From: Niastella koreensis GR20-10
Lineage (GTDB): Bacteria > Bacteroidota > Bacteroidia > Chitinophagales > Chitinophagaceae
Assembly (NCBI RefSeq): GCF_000246855.1
Contig: NC_016609.1
Location: 4,092,001-4,156,000 of the forward strand
Direction: 5' to 3'
DNA length: 64,000 bases
Below are positions 3,717 to 51,630 of the stretch, piece after piece. The notes beneath the pieces are model-generated. The model did not search any database. It saw only the letters and a list, made by a program, of their open reading frames with translations, and was not told the origin of the DNA. Made by a program: the position numbers and the translations under genes. Position 1 is the first letter of the stretch. Every line of letters begins with the position of its first letter.

Positions 3717-6700
3717 CTAATTATCAGCAGGATCGTCAGCGGAGCTGTGTTTACCGCGTCCCTTGCGAAAGGTTTTTACGTACTCAGAAGGCCGTAGTCC
3801 GAACAGCTTGGTGAACTGCTCGCGGAAATATTTGATATCATTGAACCCGGCTTCAAATGCTGCCTGGGTAATATTATTATCAGTTTCCATAAGTAATTTG
3901 GCAGCTTTGCGAAGCCGGATAAACCGGATAAAAGCAATCGGTGGCTGGCCGCAGATGGATTTGATCTTCTTATATAGGTTCGACTGGCCCATATGCAGTT
4001 CGGCAGCCAGCATTTTAATCCCAAAATCTGGATTGTCGAGGTGGGCCTCCACGATCCGGATGCAGTTATCCAAAAACTGCTGGTATTCCGGCGCTACCTT
4101 ATAAGCAGTCTTCCCAAAAGTGATGGTATTATAGAAATATTTTTGCAGCGTGGTGCGGCTTTTGAGAATGTTCTGTACCCGTGCCAACAACAAGTCCTTA
4201 TCGAACGGCTTGGTGATGTAATCATCTGCGCCGCCTTCCAACCCTTCCAGTCTTGTTTGCTGGGCGCTGTTACCGGTAAGCAGAATAACAGGGATATGGC
4301 TTAAGTTGGGATCCTCCTTGATATTAATACAAAACCCGATGCCGCTCACGCCGTCCATATTAATATCGCTGATGATGATATCGGGTACATGTTTTCCTGC
4401 CAGTTTCAATCCATCTGTGGCATTGCCGGCAGTAAATACAATAAAACTTTCCCCAAAGAGCCGCGACAGATAAGCCACTGTTTCGCTGTCGTCGTCCACC
4501 ACCAGGATGGACTTTTTTTCGTTCACCAGTGCATCCAGCTCATTTACCTTATTTGTTTCGCTGGCTGGCGTTTCGGGTGGATAGTCCGTGTCAACCAGTT
4601 CCTGGAAAATACCGGTTGATGCAGTGGCTTCCGGCACGATCATTTCTTCATCGAAGTGCCGATTACCTTTCAGCAACTGCACATGAAATGCCGTTCCTTT
4701 CCCTTCTTCGCTTTCATACCAGATGTTACCTTTTAAACTGCTGACAAAATGTTTTACAAGATATAAACCGATGCCAAAGCCGGGTTTGGCAGGGGCGATA
4801 TGCCGCACCTGGTAAAACCGGTCGAACAATTGTTCGCCTATATGCGCCGGAATACCATACCCTGTATCTTTCACCAAAACAGTGGCCGTACCAGTATCTT
4901 CAGCCAATTCAAGGGTAATGCTGCCGCCTGCCGGCGTATATTTAAATGCGTTGGATAACAGGTTAAAAAAAACGATCTCCAGCTTTTCGCGGTCGGCATA
5001 GATCTCAACGGCGCCTGGGGGTGATTTATAGGTGTACCGGATATTGGCGGTTTGGGCCTGGTGCTCAAATGCCAGAAAAACTTCCCGGCATAAATTAGTA
5101 AGATCAAGTTGTGCGATGCGGAGCCGGTCTGCACCTGCTTCTGCCTTGCGGAATAAAAGCAACTGGTCAACAAGGTTCAGCAACCTGCGGGCATTGCGGT
5201 AAACCAACTTCAACACACCCTGGTCTTTTTTATTTACCTCGCTGTTTTGGAGCAGCTCCTTTACCGGGTTAATGATCAAACTGATGGGTGTTCTGAACTC
5301 ATGCGTGATGTTGGTGAAAAACGACAGCCGCTTGTCATTGATCTCCTGCTCCTTTTCCACTTGTATTTTTTCCATCTCGGTTTCGGCCAGGTGGATCTTA
5401 TATTCAGCCTCCGCCTTTTCGCGTTCTGCTTTTTCTTTGCTGGCGTTGGCTTTTGCCAGCGCCACATCATATTTCAATTTCGCCTGGTTTATTCTATACC
5501 GTTGATAAAATACAACTGCCCAAATGAAGAACAGTGCATACAGGCTATAAGCCCACCACGAGCGGTACCAGGGCGGCAGCACTTTTATTTGTAGTTTCAA
5601 TTCTTTCGCCGACCAGTTACCTTCGGTATTGGTAGCCCTTACATGTAATACATAGTTGCCTTCATGTAATTTGGTATAATTAGCCTGGCGGATATTGCCA
5701 GCATAGTTCCAGTCTTTATCCCACCCTTCCAGGAAAAACGCATACCTGATCTTGTTAGGCTTGCCATATTCCAATGCGGTAAAATTAACCGACAGGGAAG
5801 CATCGTTGTATGGCATTTGAATGGCCGTTATTTTTCCCTGCAACGTTTGTTTTATATAGGCATCAGCCTGCGACAGGGGCAGGTTGTTGATCTGCAGATC
5901 TGTTATCAGCACGGCAGGATCGTAATTAGCAACCGGTACCAATGCCGGGTTAAAAATGTTGAACCCACGGATGCCGCCAAAAAGCATTTCGCCGCTGCTC
6001 AATTTATGGGCGGCGCCATAGAGGAACTGGTTGCTTTGCAATCCATCATCCTGAAAATAGGTTCGGAAAGTATTGGTTTTAGTATTGTATTCAGATAACC
6101 CGTTGAACGTGCTCATCCAAAGGTTGTCATTGTTGTCTTCGAGGATGTTCAATACCCCATTGTTGGAGAGGCCATCTTTTACCGTAAAGCGTTTTAACAC
6201 TTTGCCGCTTTGCCGGTCAAAAAGAATAAGTCCCCCGCCTTCGGCTCCTATCCACAGATTACCAACTTTATCTTCAAGGATCCCACGCACCGGTTTGCCA
6301 ATTTCATAACGAATATGTTTTTTATCAGCCGGATCAATACGGATCAGCTCATGCGCCGTGCCGGCCCATAATACACCGCCTTTATCCTGGCAGATAGATA
6401 ACAGATCAACCAGGTGCTGACTAAACACTTCAAACCGGTTTGTCGACCGGTTCAAATAGTAAAGCATTCCACTGCCGAAGGTGGTTGCCCATAACACTTT
6501 GTTTGTGTCCTCGAACATGATCCACACATTGTCGTTCTCCATACCGGCCACTTCATTCCTGCACTTATAGGACGTAAATGTTTTTGTAAGCGGGTTCCAC
6601 TTATTAATACCACCGCCAAAGGTGGCTACCCATACCTCTCCTTTGTAATCCTGGATTATACTGCTTACGTGATTGTTGGTAAGTGTACCTGTTTTTCCGG

Positions 6701-48394: not shown

Positions 48395-49357
48395 TTAATT
48401 TATCCTGCTGAAAACACTGGTGCCAAGCACCGTGATCTCATTTACTACTGCATCTTTATTTTTATGAATAACAACAGGGTAAAATTCCCCTTCACTGATA
48501 AAATAACAATCAGTCTTTGGCTGCAAAACTCTTTCTGTTTTATCCCACAATTGTTTTATGACCAAATGATCTTTTACGACAGTTAACTGTACAATATTGT
48601 CCGGGTCGTCGTTACTTCTGAACTTACCTTCATAAGACTTTAATTCATTTACAGAAAGAGAATGTTTTTTCGATTTAACCCAGACGTCTTTTTTAAAAGC
48701 GATCACCTGGTTGATATTGCCATCTTTATCTTTTGAGAAGTTGAGGGTGAACAATGGAAAATCCTTTACAAAAAAATCCATAGCAGATTCCGGCACAAAG
48801 AAGCGTTGCTCTCCGTCCCAACTCTGCTTCAGTACCAGTTGTCCTCCCTGTAAAGAGAATTCAATAAACCTTGTTGCATCGCCCTGAAACTGATACAATC
48901 CTTCAAACTGTTTCAGTTGATCCGGCGAAAGTTCGATCTCCTTCTTTGTTAAAGGAGTATAATTATTATTTCGTTTCCAAACGCCATTATCGGCGACCTT
49001 AACTTCATTGACAGCACCACTTGAATCTTTGATAAAAGTGATATGAACGGATTCCTGGTTACCTTCCTGGTTGCTTGAAAACTCCAATGGCGATTCGGGC
49101 AATAAATGTAGTTCGTTACCATTCCAAAGCAGTTTGGCAATGAGCATATTATCCCTTGCGGTAAACCGCACATTCATATCATTGTTCTGCGGTGACTGAA
49201 ATATCCCAGTTACGGCTTTCCATTCCTGTTCGCTCAGGCTCGCGCGTGCTTTTTGATTTTCCTGGGCTTTCACCCTGTCGGCAAAGAAAAAACAGGAACC
49301 AAGTAGAAATAAGGTTATCAGCAACCTGTTTTTGAATAAATTATTTATACAAGCCAT
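48395..49357 (-). CDS. Secreted protein with three DUF3471-like repeats
   Basis: A 320-residue protein with a signal peptide ending near VKAQE. It has three repeats of about 90 residues (about 45-135, 143-232, 235-320), each of the pattern L..YEG.(Y/F)....., VxLxVxxxxLxIKQLWDG....L.PES...F......F.F.KDxxGxVNEVxVxxxxVWxR, like the DUF3471 module often attached to beta-lactamase-like proteins. Here the modules stand alone. Last gene of a probable operon with the PepSY membrane protein and the ApbE fusion. Function unknown. Confidence 0.65.
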   Translation of the reverse strand: MACINNLFKNRLLITLFLLGSCFFFADRVKAQENQKARASLSEQEWKAVTGIFQSPQNNDMNVRFTARDNMLIAKLLWNGNELHLLPESPLEFSSNQEGNQESVHITFIKDSSGAVNEVKVADNGVWKRNNNYTPLTKKEIELSPDQLKQFEGLYQFQGDATRFIEFSLQGGQLVLKQSWDGEQRFFVPESAMDFFVKDFPLFTLNFSKDKDGNINQVIAFKKDVWVKSKKHSLSVNELKSYEGKFRSNDDPDNIVQLTVVKDHLVIKQLWDKTERVLQPKTDCYFISEGEFYPVVIHKNKDAVVNEITVLGTSVFSRIN

Positions 49358-49389
49358 AAAGCGGGATTTTATTTTTTAAAATCACAGTT

Positions 49390-50022
49390 CTATTTGATCC
49401 AGATCATGTACACGAAGTAGCCAAGCAGCAACCCGAACACTGCTACCATTAAGCCACTCGCACGTCGCTTCTTCAGGAATAACAGCAGCAACATTCCGGT
49501 AAAAGAAACAAGTGTAAGCAGGATGGCGCAAATATCTATAAATGTCGACCAGGCTGCGCCTGTGTCCCGCCCTTTGTGCAGGTCATTGATGACGCCCACA
49601 AAACCGGCACTGGTTTTTGTAAGATCGTAATTACCTGTTTCCCGGTCAATAAAAGCATCGGCCGCATAACCGGGTCCCTTAAATGAAACCCCAATCTGCG
49701 TTTCATCGATCCTGAAATCGCTCACTGGCGCGCTGATGCTATTATTCTTTCTGAGGTATTCAACTATTTCCAGCCTGGCTATTTTCAGGGTATCCGGATT
49801 GTTGACCCATAGCTTGTTCATCTTTCCTTTCTCTTCAATGGTACGGACCTTATTCACGAACTTATCCGCATGGTTTAATGTTAAGCCGGTTATAGCAAAG
49901 AAAAAAACAACAGCAAAGCTTATCATCGACAGGTAGATGTGAAGCCAGCGCATTAACATAGCCGTTTTACGGTACCAGGTGAGCCAATTCATTCTTTGTG
50001 GGGCCGTTTTTTCCTGCAACAT
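49390..50022 (-). CDS. PepSY-associated transmembrane protein
   Basis: A 210-residue inner-membrane protein: first helix LHIYLSMISFAVVFFFAITGLTLNH, a periplasmic PepSY-like domain (about 60-145, LEIVEYLRKNNSI, FIDRETGNYDLTKT), then LHKGRDTGAAWSTFIDICAILLTLVSFTGMLLLL and a final helix. The His residues in the helices (LHIY, LNHAD, DLHKG) fit haem ligands of PepSY_TM ferric-reductase-like proteins. Encoded 20 bases after the ApbE-DUF2271 gene. Translation may start at Met11 instead of Met1. Likely part of a flavin/haem membrane redox unit. Confidence 0.8.
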   Translation of the reverse strand: MLQEKTAPQRMNWLTWYRKTAMLMRWLHIYLSMISFAVVFFFAITGLTLNHADKFVNKVRTIEEKGKMNKLWVNNPDTLKIARLEIVEYLRKNNSISAPVSDFRIDETQIGVSFKGPGYAADAFIDRETGNYDLTKTSAGFVGVINDLHKGRDTGAAWSTFIDICAILLTLVSFTGMLLLLFLKKRRASGLMVAVFGLLLGYFVYMIWIK

Positions 50023-50042
50023 CAGTTTATTGATTGCGCATT

Positions 50043-51587
50043 TTAATTTTTATGATAATCCAGGGAGACTGAAGAAATTTCAATATTTCCTGGCAGATTG
50101 ATCTGCTTTGGTGTGTTATCGCAGTCAATCTCCTGACGCATCAGTTGGTGCGTGCCATGTTCACGGGCGGCTTCAATTTTCACAATGTATTTTCCGGGTT
50201 TTACATAATTTCCTTTGTCATCTTTGCCATCCCATTTAAGCGTATATTTCCCGGCAGAACGTGTGGCGCTTGATGTCGAACTCTTAAAATTCATGTCTGA
50301 ATTATAGATGGTTCTATATTTAAGATACCACGATTTGAGCTCCGGCATATAACGGTCGCTGCCGTGCCATATAGATACTGTTCTTACAGGTGAATGCATG
50401 GTGTCTTCTATCCATACTGCCAGGTACGGTCTTTTGGCGAAACCTTCTTTTTGCGTATTGATCTCAAGATTGATGATCATCTCAAAACTATTCCCTCCCG
50501 CCTCCCGGTTTCCGGTTTTAGTGTTCAAATTCCCAACTATGCCATTTTCTTTATATGCTGCCTTCAGGCTGCCCCAACCTTTGCTTGTTTGCTGTTTACC
50601 ATCCCTGGTTACGATGAGGTACTCCACTCCCGGCATCGTAGAGGCCAGCTGAACGCTCTCAGGTAACGACATTACATTAAAAGCAGTGGCCAGCGCGCCG
50701 GCATCTGCAGCATCAGGCGCCACCACAGTGGCACTGATAATATCATCGGCGGGAAGACCGGTGCGGGGGTCCACAATGTGTGAATACCAATGACCACCGA
50801 TCAATTCTCCCCTGCGGTAGTTGCCGCTCGTAGCCACCGCCTTATCAGAGATCCGTAACGAAGCTATAGGGGCTTCATTTTCTGCATCTGCTTTGGGGTC
50901 CTTTACAAGAACGTTTTCAGTTACGTCGCCAGACACTACTATATCTCCCCCGATATTCAGCACTACTGCCTTTACATCGCCAGGTTTCATTGCCTCATTT
51001 ACTGCGTGTTTGATAATATAGCTCTTCACAAATGAATTTAGCATTAGTGGGGCATTATCAAGGTGCGTAGCAGTTCGTGTTTTTGGATTCAATACCCAAT
51101 GGGTTTGTTTTATCTCGGCCACGGCGTTATTCAATTCCTGTTGCGTGGGCACACGATTTGTTGAAGCTGCTTTCTTCCACAGCCGTGTCACAATTTCGGC
51201 AGATGCATCCAATGCCCCACCCGTGCGGTTACGCCAAACATCGAATAACTGCATTACTTCAAATAGCTCATTGGAAACAGGTACCGGCTGCCCGCATGTT
51301 TTTTGCCATTTGCTAAACTCACTTTCCTTATCGTAGGCACTCAGGATTTCAGATAACTTTTTGATCTCGGCAAGTGCAGTTTTTTCAGCTTCAGTAGCAC
51401 GCACTTGTGTGTAGGTCGAAACTTTGAGCTCCATGGAGGTACCAAGCACATTTTCATACTGCGACAAATAGGTATGCAGGGCTTTTCCCTTTTTAGGGGG
51501 CGCAGCTGCGTAAGCGATTGTACATGTTAATAGCAATATCCCAGCTAAACAATAGCTGCATACGCTTCCGGAGAACATTTTTTTCAT
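50043..51587 (-). CDS. apbE: FAD:protein FMN transferase (ApbE) fused to DUF2271
   Basis: A 514-residue exported protein (signal peptide ending near TIAYAA). Residues about 45-335 are ApbE: LGTSMELKVST, VVLNIGGDIVVSG, HIVDPRTGLP and the Mg-binding DAADAGALATAFNVMS. ApbE moves FMN from FAD onto Thr of target proteins in the periplasm. Residues about 370-510 are a DUF2271 domain (NSFEMIINLEINTQ, KRPYLAVWIEDTM, KYTLKWDGKDDKGNYVKPGKYIVKIEAAREHGTHQL broken by short gaps). The two are usually separate genes, so this is a fusion. Followed by the PepSY protein gene in a probable operon. Confidence 0.88.
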   Translation of the reverse strand: MKKMFSGSVCSYCLAGILLLTCTIAYAAAPPKKGKALHTYLSQYENVLGTSMELKVSTYTQVRATEAEKTALAEIKKLSEILSAYDKESEFSKWQKTCGQPVPVSNELFEVMQLFDVWRNRTGGALDASAEIVTRLWKKAASTNRVPTQQELNNAVAEIKQTHWVLNPKTRTATHLDNAPLMLNSFVKSYIIKHAVNEAMKPGDVKAVVLNIGGDIVVSGDVTENVLVKDPKADAENEAPIASLRISDKAVATSGNYRRGELIGGHWYSHIVDPRTGLPADDIISATVVAPDAADAGALATAFNVMSLPESVQLASTMPGVEYLIVTRDGKQQTSKGWGSLKAAYKENGIVGNLNTKTGNREAGGNSFEMIINLEINTQKEGFAKRPYLAVWIEDTMHSPVRTVSIWHGSDRYMPELKSWYLKYRTIYNSDMNFKSSTSSATRSAGKYTLKWDGKDDKGNYVKPGKYIVKIEAAREHGTHQLMRQEIDCDNTPKQINLPGNIEISSVSLDYHKN

Positions 51588-51602
51588 TGGATGATATTAA
51601 GT

Positions 51603-51630
51603 TAACATTATCCTGAAAACGATAATGTTA
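51603..51630. promoter_or_regulatory. Inverted repeat upstream of the apbE operon
   Basis: TAACATTATC and GATAATGTTA form ten-base perfect arms with an eight-base spacer, 16 bases upstream of the apbE start. No T-run follows in either direction that fits a terminator, so an operator (TetR-like palindrome) or leader hairpin is likelier. Confidence 0.45.

Follow-up and report, generated by a model that had tools for sequence, protein, structure and literature searches.

Flavinylation systems of the PepSY-like kind combine ApbE, a transferase of flavin mononucleotide (FMN), with a DUF2271 protein and often a DUF4198 protein, and iron reduction has been argued to be their function (Meheust et al. 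2021, eLife, PMC8238504). In the same study, a DUF2271 protein was found to be flavinylated at a [S/T]GA[S/T] site, and a single-gene ApbE-DUF2271 fusion (RUL87804.1) was already mentioned. The Caulobacter genes CCNA_03155-03159 are a target of Fur, and mutants are less fit under ethylenediaminetetraacetic acid (PMC11870441, PMC3751524), while an Alteromonas COG1477-DUF2271 gene (MASE_18630) rises under iron limitation (PMC7190382). In PepSY proteins, haem has been placed on conserved histidines (PMC11334425, PMC13038864). Here we describe an ApbE-DUF2271 fusion gene and its PepSY neighbor from Niastella koreensis GR20-10, located in a window of 64,000 nucleotides (contig NC_016609.1, positions 4,092,001 to 4,156,000 of the forward strand). 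The fusion belongs to a clade in which the metal ligand of ApbE appears to have been lost throughout, in proteins that still keep the flavin acceptor. This combination appears to be new: searches of open-licence papers, supplementary files excluded, returned no mention of a loss of the Mg2+-ligand Asp in ApbE-DUF2271 fusions.

A preliminary description of this DNA, made from the sequence alone, had proposed three adjacent minus-strand genes, the first joining ApbE to DUF2271 and the second encoding a PepSY membrane protein. The open reading frames (ORFs) at 48395-51587 agree with this, and Pfam searches recovered both domains in the one protein, including the DUF2271 part, for which profile support had been named as a check (Table 1). 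An AlphaFold model of the fusion, calculated from a 12-row alignment, had a mean predicted local distance difference test score (pLDDT) of 79.1 and a predicted template modeling score of 0.78. The ApbE half of the model superimposes on Treponema pallidum Ftp (4xdt) with a Z-score of 32.5 over 310 residues (2.6 Å, 25% identity), and Foldseek matched it to FmnB (E 2e-20). The N-terminal half of the fusion has the sequence family as well as the fold of the ApbE transferases, which move FMN from flavin adenine dinucleotide (FAD) to protein. The DUF2271 half forms a C2/immunoglobulin (Ig)-like sandwich with middling scores (Z about 8; 7.5 for the FlgD Ig domain), and pLDDT drops below 50 in the loop preceding the acceptor site.

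The most striking feature of the ApbE half is at residue 297, where a Gly aligns with the Mg2+-ligand Asp of 4xdt and with the Ala of 4xdr, which we take to be the Ftp mutant D284A. The metal place was set by alignment to T. pallidum Ftp and TM1553 together with the D-x-x-S-T spacing; the FmnB residue numbers Asp301, Ser257 and His273 were carried over by motif position. Asp301 of FmnB ligates both Mg2+ ions, and enzymes with Ala in place of a ligand lost most or all of their activity (PMC8906456). Five near-duplicates (>97% identity) were taken out first; in the 53 distinct fusions that remained, the metal place was Gly in 34, Asp in 12 and Asn in 7. It was Gly in all 34 distinct proteins of the clade to which the N. 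koreensis fusion belongs and in none of the 19 other fusions. Among 68 non-fused ApbEs (21 from scanned loci, 44 from genomes that carry a Gly-type fusion, two from N. koreensis, and TM1553) there were 64 with Asp, three with Asn, one with Glu and none with Gly. The 34 Gly proteins make up one side of a branch in a quick tree of 120 rows, with a support of 99 in the Shimodaira-Hasegawa-like approximate likelihood ratio test (SH-aLRT), and this branch sits inside a fusion-rich group of 57 (SH-aLRT 100). A single origin on the tree suggests that the change to Gly arose once.

Of the proposed triad, Ser and His (Ser257 and His273 in FmnB) are retained in the fusion as Ser254 and His270. Along with Lys188 and Thr301, they are unchanged across the Gly clade; Thr253 and Gly255 of the pocket are also kept, and the Lys-Gly of the pocket motif is replaced by Lys-Ser or Lys-Thr. 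That pocket residues were kept though the metal ligand was lost would suit a non-covalent flavoprotein, in which the ApbE half holds FAD or FMN as an electron carrier and DUF2271 docks to PepSY. Some ApbE/Ftp proteins do bind FAD (PMC4767422), and conservation over the full fusion is similar to that in DUF2271 (60% and 62% mean column identity, respectively, over 12 rows). However, the fusion also differs at the position of FmnB Asp184, a residue in contact with the adenosine, and the invariant acceptor Thr would be left unexplained; we consider this arrangement improbable. The change at Asp184 was rejected as a sign of inactivity, because DUF3570-type ApbEs lack this residue as well.

The acceptor site itself has also changed. 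Where the canonical DUF2271 site is [ST]GA[ST], the N. koreensis fusion reads SSAT, with the final Thr442 retained. The canonical motif is present in all 28 stand-alone Bacteroidota DUF2271s aligned to the fusion. Its Gly was found in 17 of 20 DUF2271s whose locus has a separate ApbE, in 8 of 15 for which the locus yielded no ApbE, and in 8 of 58 fusions, a number that includes the five near-duplicates. At the last residue of the motif, the place of the FMN acceptor, every one of the 121 rows, 58/58 fusions included, has Thr or Ser, and 34/34 fusions of the Gly clade have Thr. As to the flavinylation motif, for which the preliminary description had suggested a check, the acceptor Thr is there, in DUF2271, but the motif around it is altered. 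In another flavinylation target, replacing the Gly by Ala left about half of the flavinylation (reviewed in PMC12052999). Loss of the motif Gly was rejected as proof of lost flavinylation, and motif drift in general is no evidence for it, because Asp-type fusions and clusters with a lone ApbE have drifted too: Acinetobacter Asp-type fusions, the only ApbE match in each of three genomes, read AKPS, and Deinococcota and Gemmatimonadota clusters, with an Asp-intact sole ApbE match, read SGPT/SSPT and SSAT. The DUF3570 protein of N. koreensis (see below) likewise has candidate sites without the Gly. In Vibrio, Aliivibrio and Neptuniibacter (L097-L100, L111), PepSY-DUF2271 pairs read SSAT or TSAT, and no ApbE was found in the fetched locus.

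The Acinetobacter fusions bear directly on the possibility that the N. koreensis fusion is a working cis-flavinylase, in which the fused ApbE loads its own DUF2271, once per molecule, through a rebuilt metal site. Since these lone fusions read AKPS, tethering seems to relax the motif, and the acceptor Thr/Ser is kept in 58/58 fusions while the other positions drift. Moreover, an acid has been gained at residue 224, which is Glu in 33/34 fusions of the Gly clade and Trp in 55/68 non-fused ApbEs. Against this stand the chemistry of Gly, whose side chain cannot ligate a metal, and the finding that in Ftp the Mg2+ ligands were the sole residues critical to FMN transfer (PMC4767422). The frequent presence of a second ApbE (see below) also speaks against self-loading, which we hold to be rather unlikely. 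The preliminary description had taken ApbE to attach FMN to exported proteins. Family and fold are those of ApbE, but with an SSAT motif and no Mg2+-binding Asp, FMN attachment by the N. koreensis fusion cannot be assumed.

Another ApbE was found in 32 of the 33 genomes searched that carry a Gly-type fusion (11/12 and 21/21). The 33 do not include six further Gly-type loci, five of them duplicates and the sixth L055, where a separate ApbE lies in the locus. In each of the 32 genomes the sequence of at least one additional ApbE was inspected; Asp occupied its metal place in 31 genomes, and Glu in the remaining one (G434). Among near-complete genomes of the N. koreensis family, all 10 that carry the fusion had another ApbE, and 67 of the 120 that lack it had an ApbE (Fisher p 0.004, kinship ignored). 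The co-occurrence fits, without proving, a dependence of the Gly-type fusion on another ApbE. The N. koreensis genome (9.03 Mb, single contig) has three ApbEs, one DUF2271 and one PF16357 protein. One of its ApbEs, outside the window, adjoins a Gfo/Idh/MocA oxidoreductase (the pair at L140:4211-5416 and 5589-6647). The oxidoreductase has a twin-arginine-like start and an exact DGVTGAT at residue 320, a motif absent from its homologues in the loci of related ApbEs (L184, L191 and L192). In the ApbE-thioredoxin cluster of N. koreensis, a DUF3570 protein (L141:4462-5652) has candidate sites TSAS and SSAS, compared with the published [ST]GA[ST], just ahead of its Pfam-matched stretch.

The 210-aa PepSY protein matches PF16357 (PepSY_TM_like_2, E 6.1e-49) and has three hydrophobic helices by hydropathy. 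His28 and His149 are invariant in the 42 PepSY proteins beside fusions and the 35 beside non-fused DUF2271s (77/77), and His51 is found in 40/42 and 28/35 of these, respectively. From these histidines, the protein would be of the haem-b type. The fusion has an N-terminal hydrophobic segment, recognized by eye as a probable signal peptide. Taking these observations together, we propose, with an even chance of being right, that the two proteins constitute an electron-transfer unit of a PepSY cytochrome and a flavoprotein, in which the fused ApbE half has ceased to transfer FMN. PepSY would take electrons from the membrane or the cytosol and hand them to the exported ApbE-DUF2271 protein, and the flavin of the latter would then reduce an acceptor in the periplasm, most likely a metal such as ferric iron. 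The ApbE half, without the Asp for the catalytic Mg2+, would probably no longer be an FMN transferase and may survive as a flavin-pocket or docking domain, while Thr442, if it bears FMN, would be loaded by a separate ApbE of the same genome. Somewhat more tentatively, a transferase may first have merged with its own substrate and later lost the metal site, becoming a structural, flavin-holding half that would owe any covalent flavin to another ApbE. Alternatively, the unit could have given up flavin chemistry, with the fusion serving as an exported protein for scaffolding or ligand binding and PepSY acting alone, as in VciB. Both the Asp and the canonical motif are lost, and neither DUF4198 nor FMN_bind has a match in the N. 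koreensis genome at E 0.001. However, Ser254, His270, Lys188, Thr301 and Thr442 are invariant in the clade, and we regard a unit without flavin as very improbable.

Several observations weigh against the proposed electron-transfer unit with an inactive transferase half. The gained Glu224 might compensate for the lost metal ligand. Asn occupies the metal place in the ApbE of 8/8 stand-alone Bacteroidota DUF2271 clusters with an intact TGA[ST], and one genome (G119) has an Asn-type ApbE as its only ApbE match. Since Asn-type ApbEs occur with intact TGA[ST] sites, Asp is not strictly needed, and only the complete loss of a side-chain ligand, as with Gly, appears to make a strong argument. The 34 Gly rows are not 34 independent observations, because they reflect a single evolutionary event. 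The sole genome in which no other ApbE was found (G112) is 69% complete, the completeness of the 21/21 genome set is not given, and the co-occurrence counts ignore relatedness. No single type of second ApbE is common to all Gly-type genomes, one of the two other ApbEs of N. koreensis sits in its own DUF3570-thioredoxin cluster, and other ApbEs also occur in most of the planctomycete genomes that carry an Asp- or Asn-type fusion. Finally, in locus L055 no PepSY gene was detected between the fusion and the third gene.

The stand-alone clusters with Asn (L198-L205) come from the N. koreensis family. Their ApbEs have Asn at the metal place in 8/8 and Glu instead of the pocket Lys in 6/8, together an apparent swap of charges. 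In L198, the one cluster scanned for neighbors, the PepSY protein is 731 aa long and includes flavodoxin and NAD-binding domains; DUF2271 has an ankyrin-repeat protein as its neighbor.

The order of fusion and PepSY gene was sought in other genomes, as the preliminary description had advised. The scan of named genomes, on which the locus counts rest, covered the best 80 of 239 confirmed relatives. In 42 of its 45 fusion loci an adjacent PepSY gene was picked up, the exceptions being L055, L083 and L089. One locus (L086:2270-7396) contains two ApbE-DUF2271 fusions, the second followed by PepSY. Judging from record titles and group codes, the Gly-type fusions are from Bacteroidota, except for one metagenome-assembled genome labeled Acidobacteriia (L061); a record labeled Williamsia (L064) duplicates the L026 protein from a genome of the N. 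koreensis family. DUF2271 was found in 22/147 genomes of the Chitinophagaceae family set (20 above cut-off) and in 35/296 genomes of the phylum set (22 above cut-off). The 41 distinct matches above cut-off comprised 12 fusions and 29 stand-alone proteins, 28 of which were retrieved for comparison.

Table 1. Positions in the 64,000-nucleotide window of the genes, domains and sites discussed in the text.
Feature	Position	Strand	Details and basis
ApbE-DUF2271 fusion gene	50043..51587	-	514 aa; ORF list and Pfam
PepSY_TM-like membrane protein gene	49390..50022	-	210 aa; Pfam, hydropathy, His conservation
DUF3471-like triple-repeat protein gene	48395..49357	-	320 aa; Pfam, blastp of repeats
ApbE domain, residues 48-324	50616..51446	-	PF02424, E 4.5e-54; structure matches
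DUF2271 domain, residues 372-505	50073..50474	-	PF10029, E 8.6e-31; C2/Ig-like sandwich in model
Gly297 codon, place of ApbE Mg2+-ligand Asp	50697..50699	-	Alignment to Ftp and other ApbEs
Ser-Ser-Ala-Thr, residues 439-442, altered flavinylation site	50262..50273	-	DUF2271 alignment
Inverted repeat, 10-base arms and 8-base gap	51603..51630	none	15 nt upstream of fusion ATG; function unsupported

By the ORF coordinates, the fusion and PepSY genes are separated by 20 nt and the PepSY and third genes by 32 nt, and these short spacers suggest that the three genes are co-transcribed. The third protein, probably exported as read by eye, had been described as a stand-alone set of three DUF3471-like repeats, which holds: it scores above the Pfam cut-off for DUF3471 (PF11954, E 8.7e-8, 32.9 bits; gathering threshold 29.3), the best stretch covers one repeat, and the three repeats are similar to one another (blastp of each pair, E 4e-10 to 2e-13, 24-33% identity). 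Three relatives of this gene score below the cut-off. The gene was also counted as a member of the unit, and this we reject for the core. Among the best 80 relatives, it was found only in N. koreensis and six other loci (L054, L055, L056, L134, L135 and L136), of which L054 and L056 duplicate L021 and L020, and L134-L136 are the genomes of L014, L018 and L019. The carriers form one subclade of seven on the ApbE tree (SH-aLRT 95).

Upstream of the fusion, the ten-base inverted repeat noted in the preliminary description is present, with perfect arms at 51603-51612 and 51621-51630 inside 16-nt arms of 88%. An arm of 10 bases was reached in 6/1000 Markov-resampled versions of the 280-nt intergenic stretch. 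The sequence has one copy in the genome even when 3 mismatches are allowed. Upstream stretches were tried for 22 relatives, and the start could be placed in 20 (L021 had only 5 bases upstream). The N. koreensis sequence was absent upstream of the fusion in these 20; some inverted repeat, with arms of 7-12 bases, was found in 8 of them. With a single genomic copy and no counterpart in the relatives examined, the repeat gives no support to the suggestion that it is an operator for iron or redox control.

Flanking genes are mostly unshared among fusion loci, except in close relatives and in Acinetobacter. We scanned 17 hand-picked flanking genes against Pfam (20 proteins minus three homologues of the third gene). 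Three pointed to iron: a TonB-type receptor in Aquirufa, and DUF4198 and a flavodoxin/NAD reductase in Acinetobacter. Nine belonged to unrelated families or DUFs, and five had no match or only a DUF-like one, some probably being false ORFs. Iron genes as typical neighbors were rejected on these numbers. The earlier suggestion of iron as the acceptor is borrowed from proteobacterial relatives.

ApbE genes serve to predict extracytosolic electron transfer by flavins, and a clade without the metal ligand means that such predictions can mislead. Three questions also find a natural test in the Gly clade: what ApbE domains do other than transfer, whether a tethered substrate can do without its recognition motif, and whether ApbEs act in trans.

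Of the described systems, the PepSY metal reductases FoxB, VciB and CrpH resemble the N. koreensis protein in having conserved His residues in or beside the helices (compared unaligned), but they are described without an ApbE-DUF2271 partner (PMC11334425, PMC13038864). Alteromonas MASE_18630, compared by description, likewise fuses an ApbE-type (COG1477) domain to DUF2271, and differs in adjoining iron-responsive TonB receptors (PMC7190382). The Caulobacter CCNA_03155-03159 locus also brings PepSY, DUF2271 and ApbE together; there, however, ApbE and DUF2271 are separate, DUF4198 and a flavoprotein are present, and, of the two loci, Fur control has been shown for that one only. The closest correspondence is with the PepSY-like flavinylation systems, which place exported ApbE and DUF2271 next to a membrane protein of PF16357/PF03929 and are defined by such a protein within five genes of ApbE/DUF2271 (PMC8238504); in N. 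koreensis it is adjacent. The canonical [S/T]GA[S/T], from which SSAT departs, is a reported property and not part of that definition. N. koreensis differs from these systems in the lack of a DUF4198 match, the altered motif, the absence of the Mg2+ Asp and the extra DUF3471-repeat gene. The envelope redox unit proposed in the preliminary description is a sound interpretation: the arrangement is a known one, which has been linked to iron reduction in other organisms (PMC8238504, PMC11870441), and the locus is of a known kind, a PepSY-like flavinylation system.

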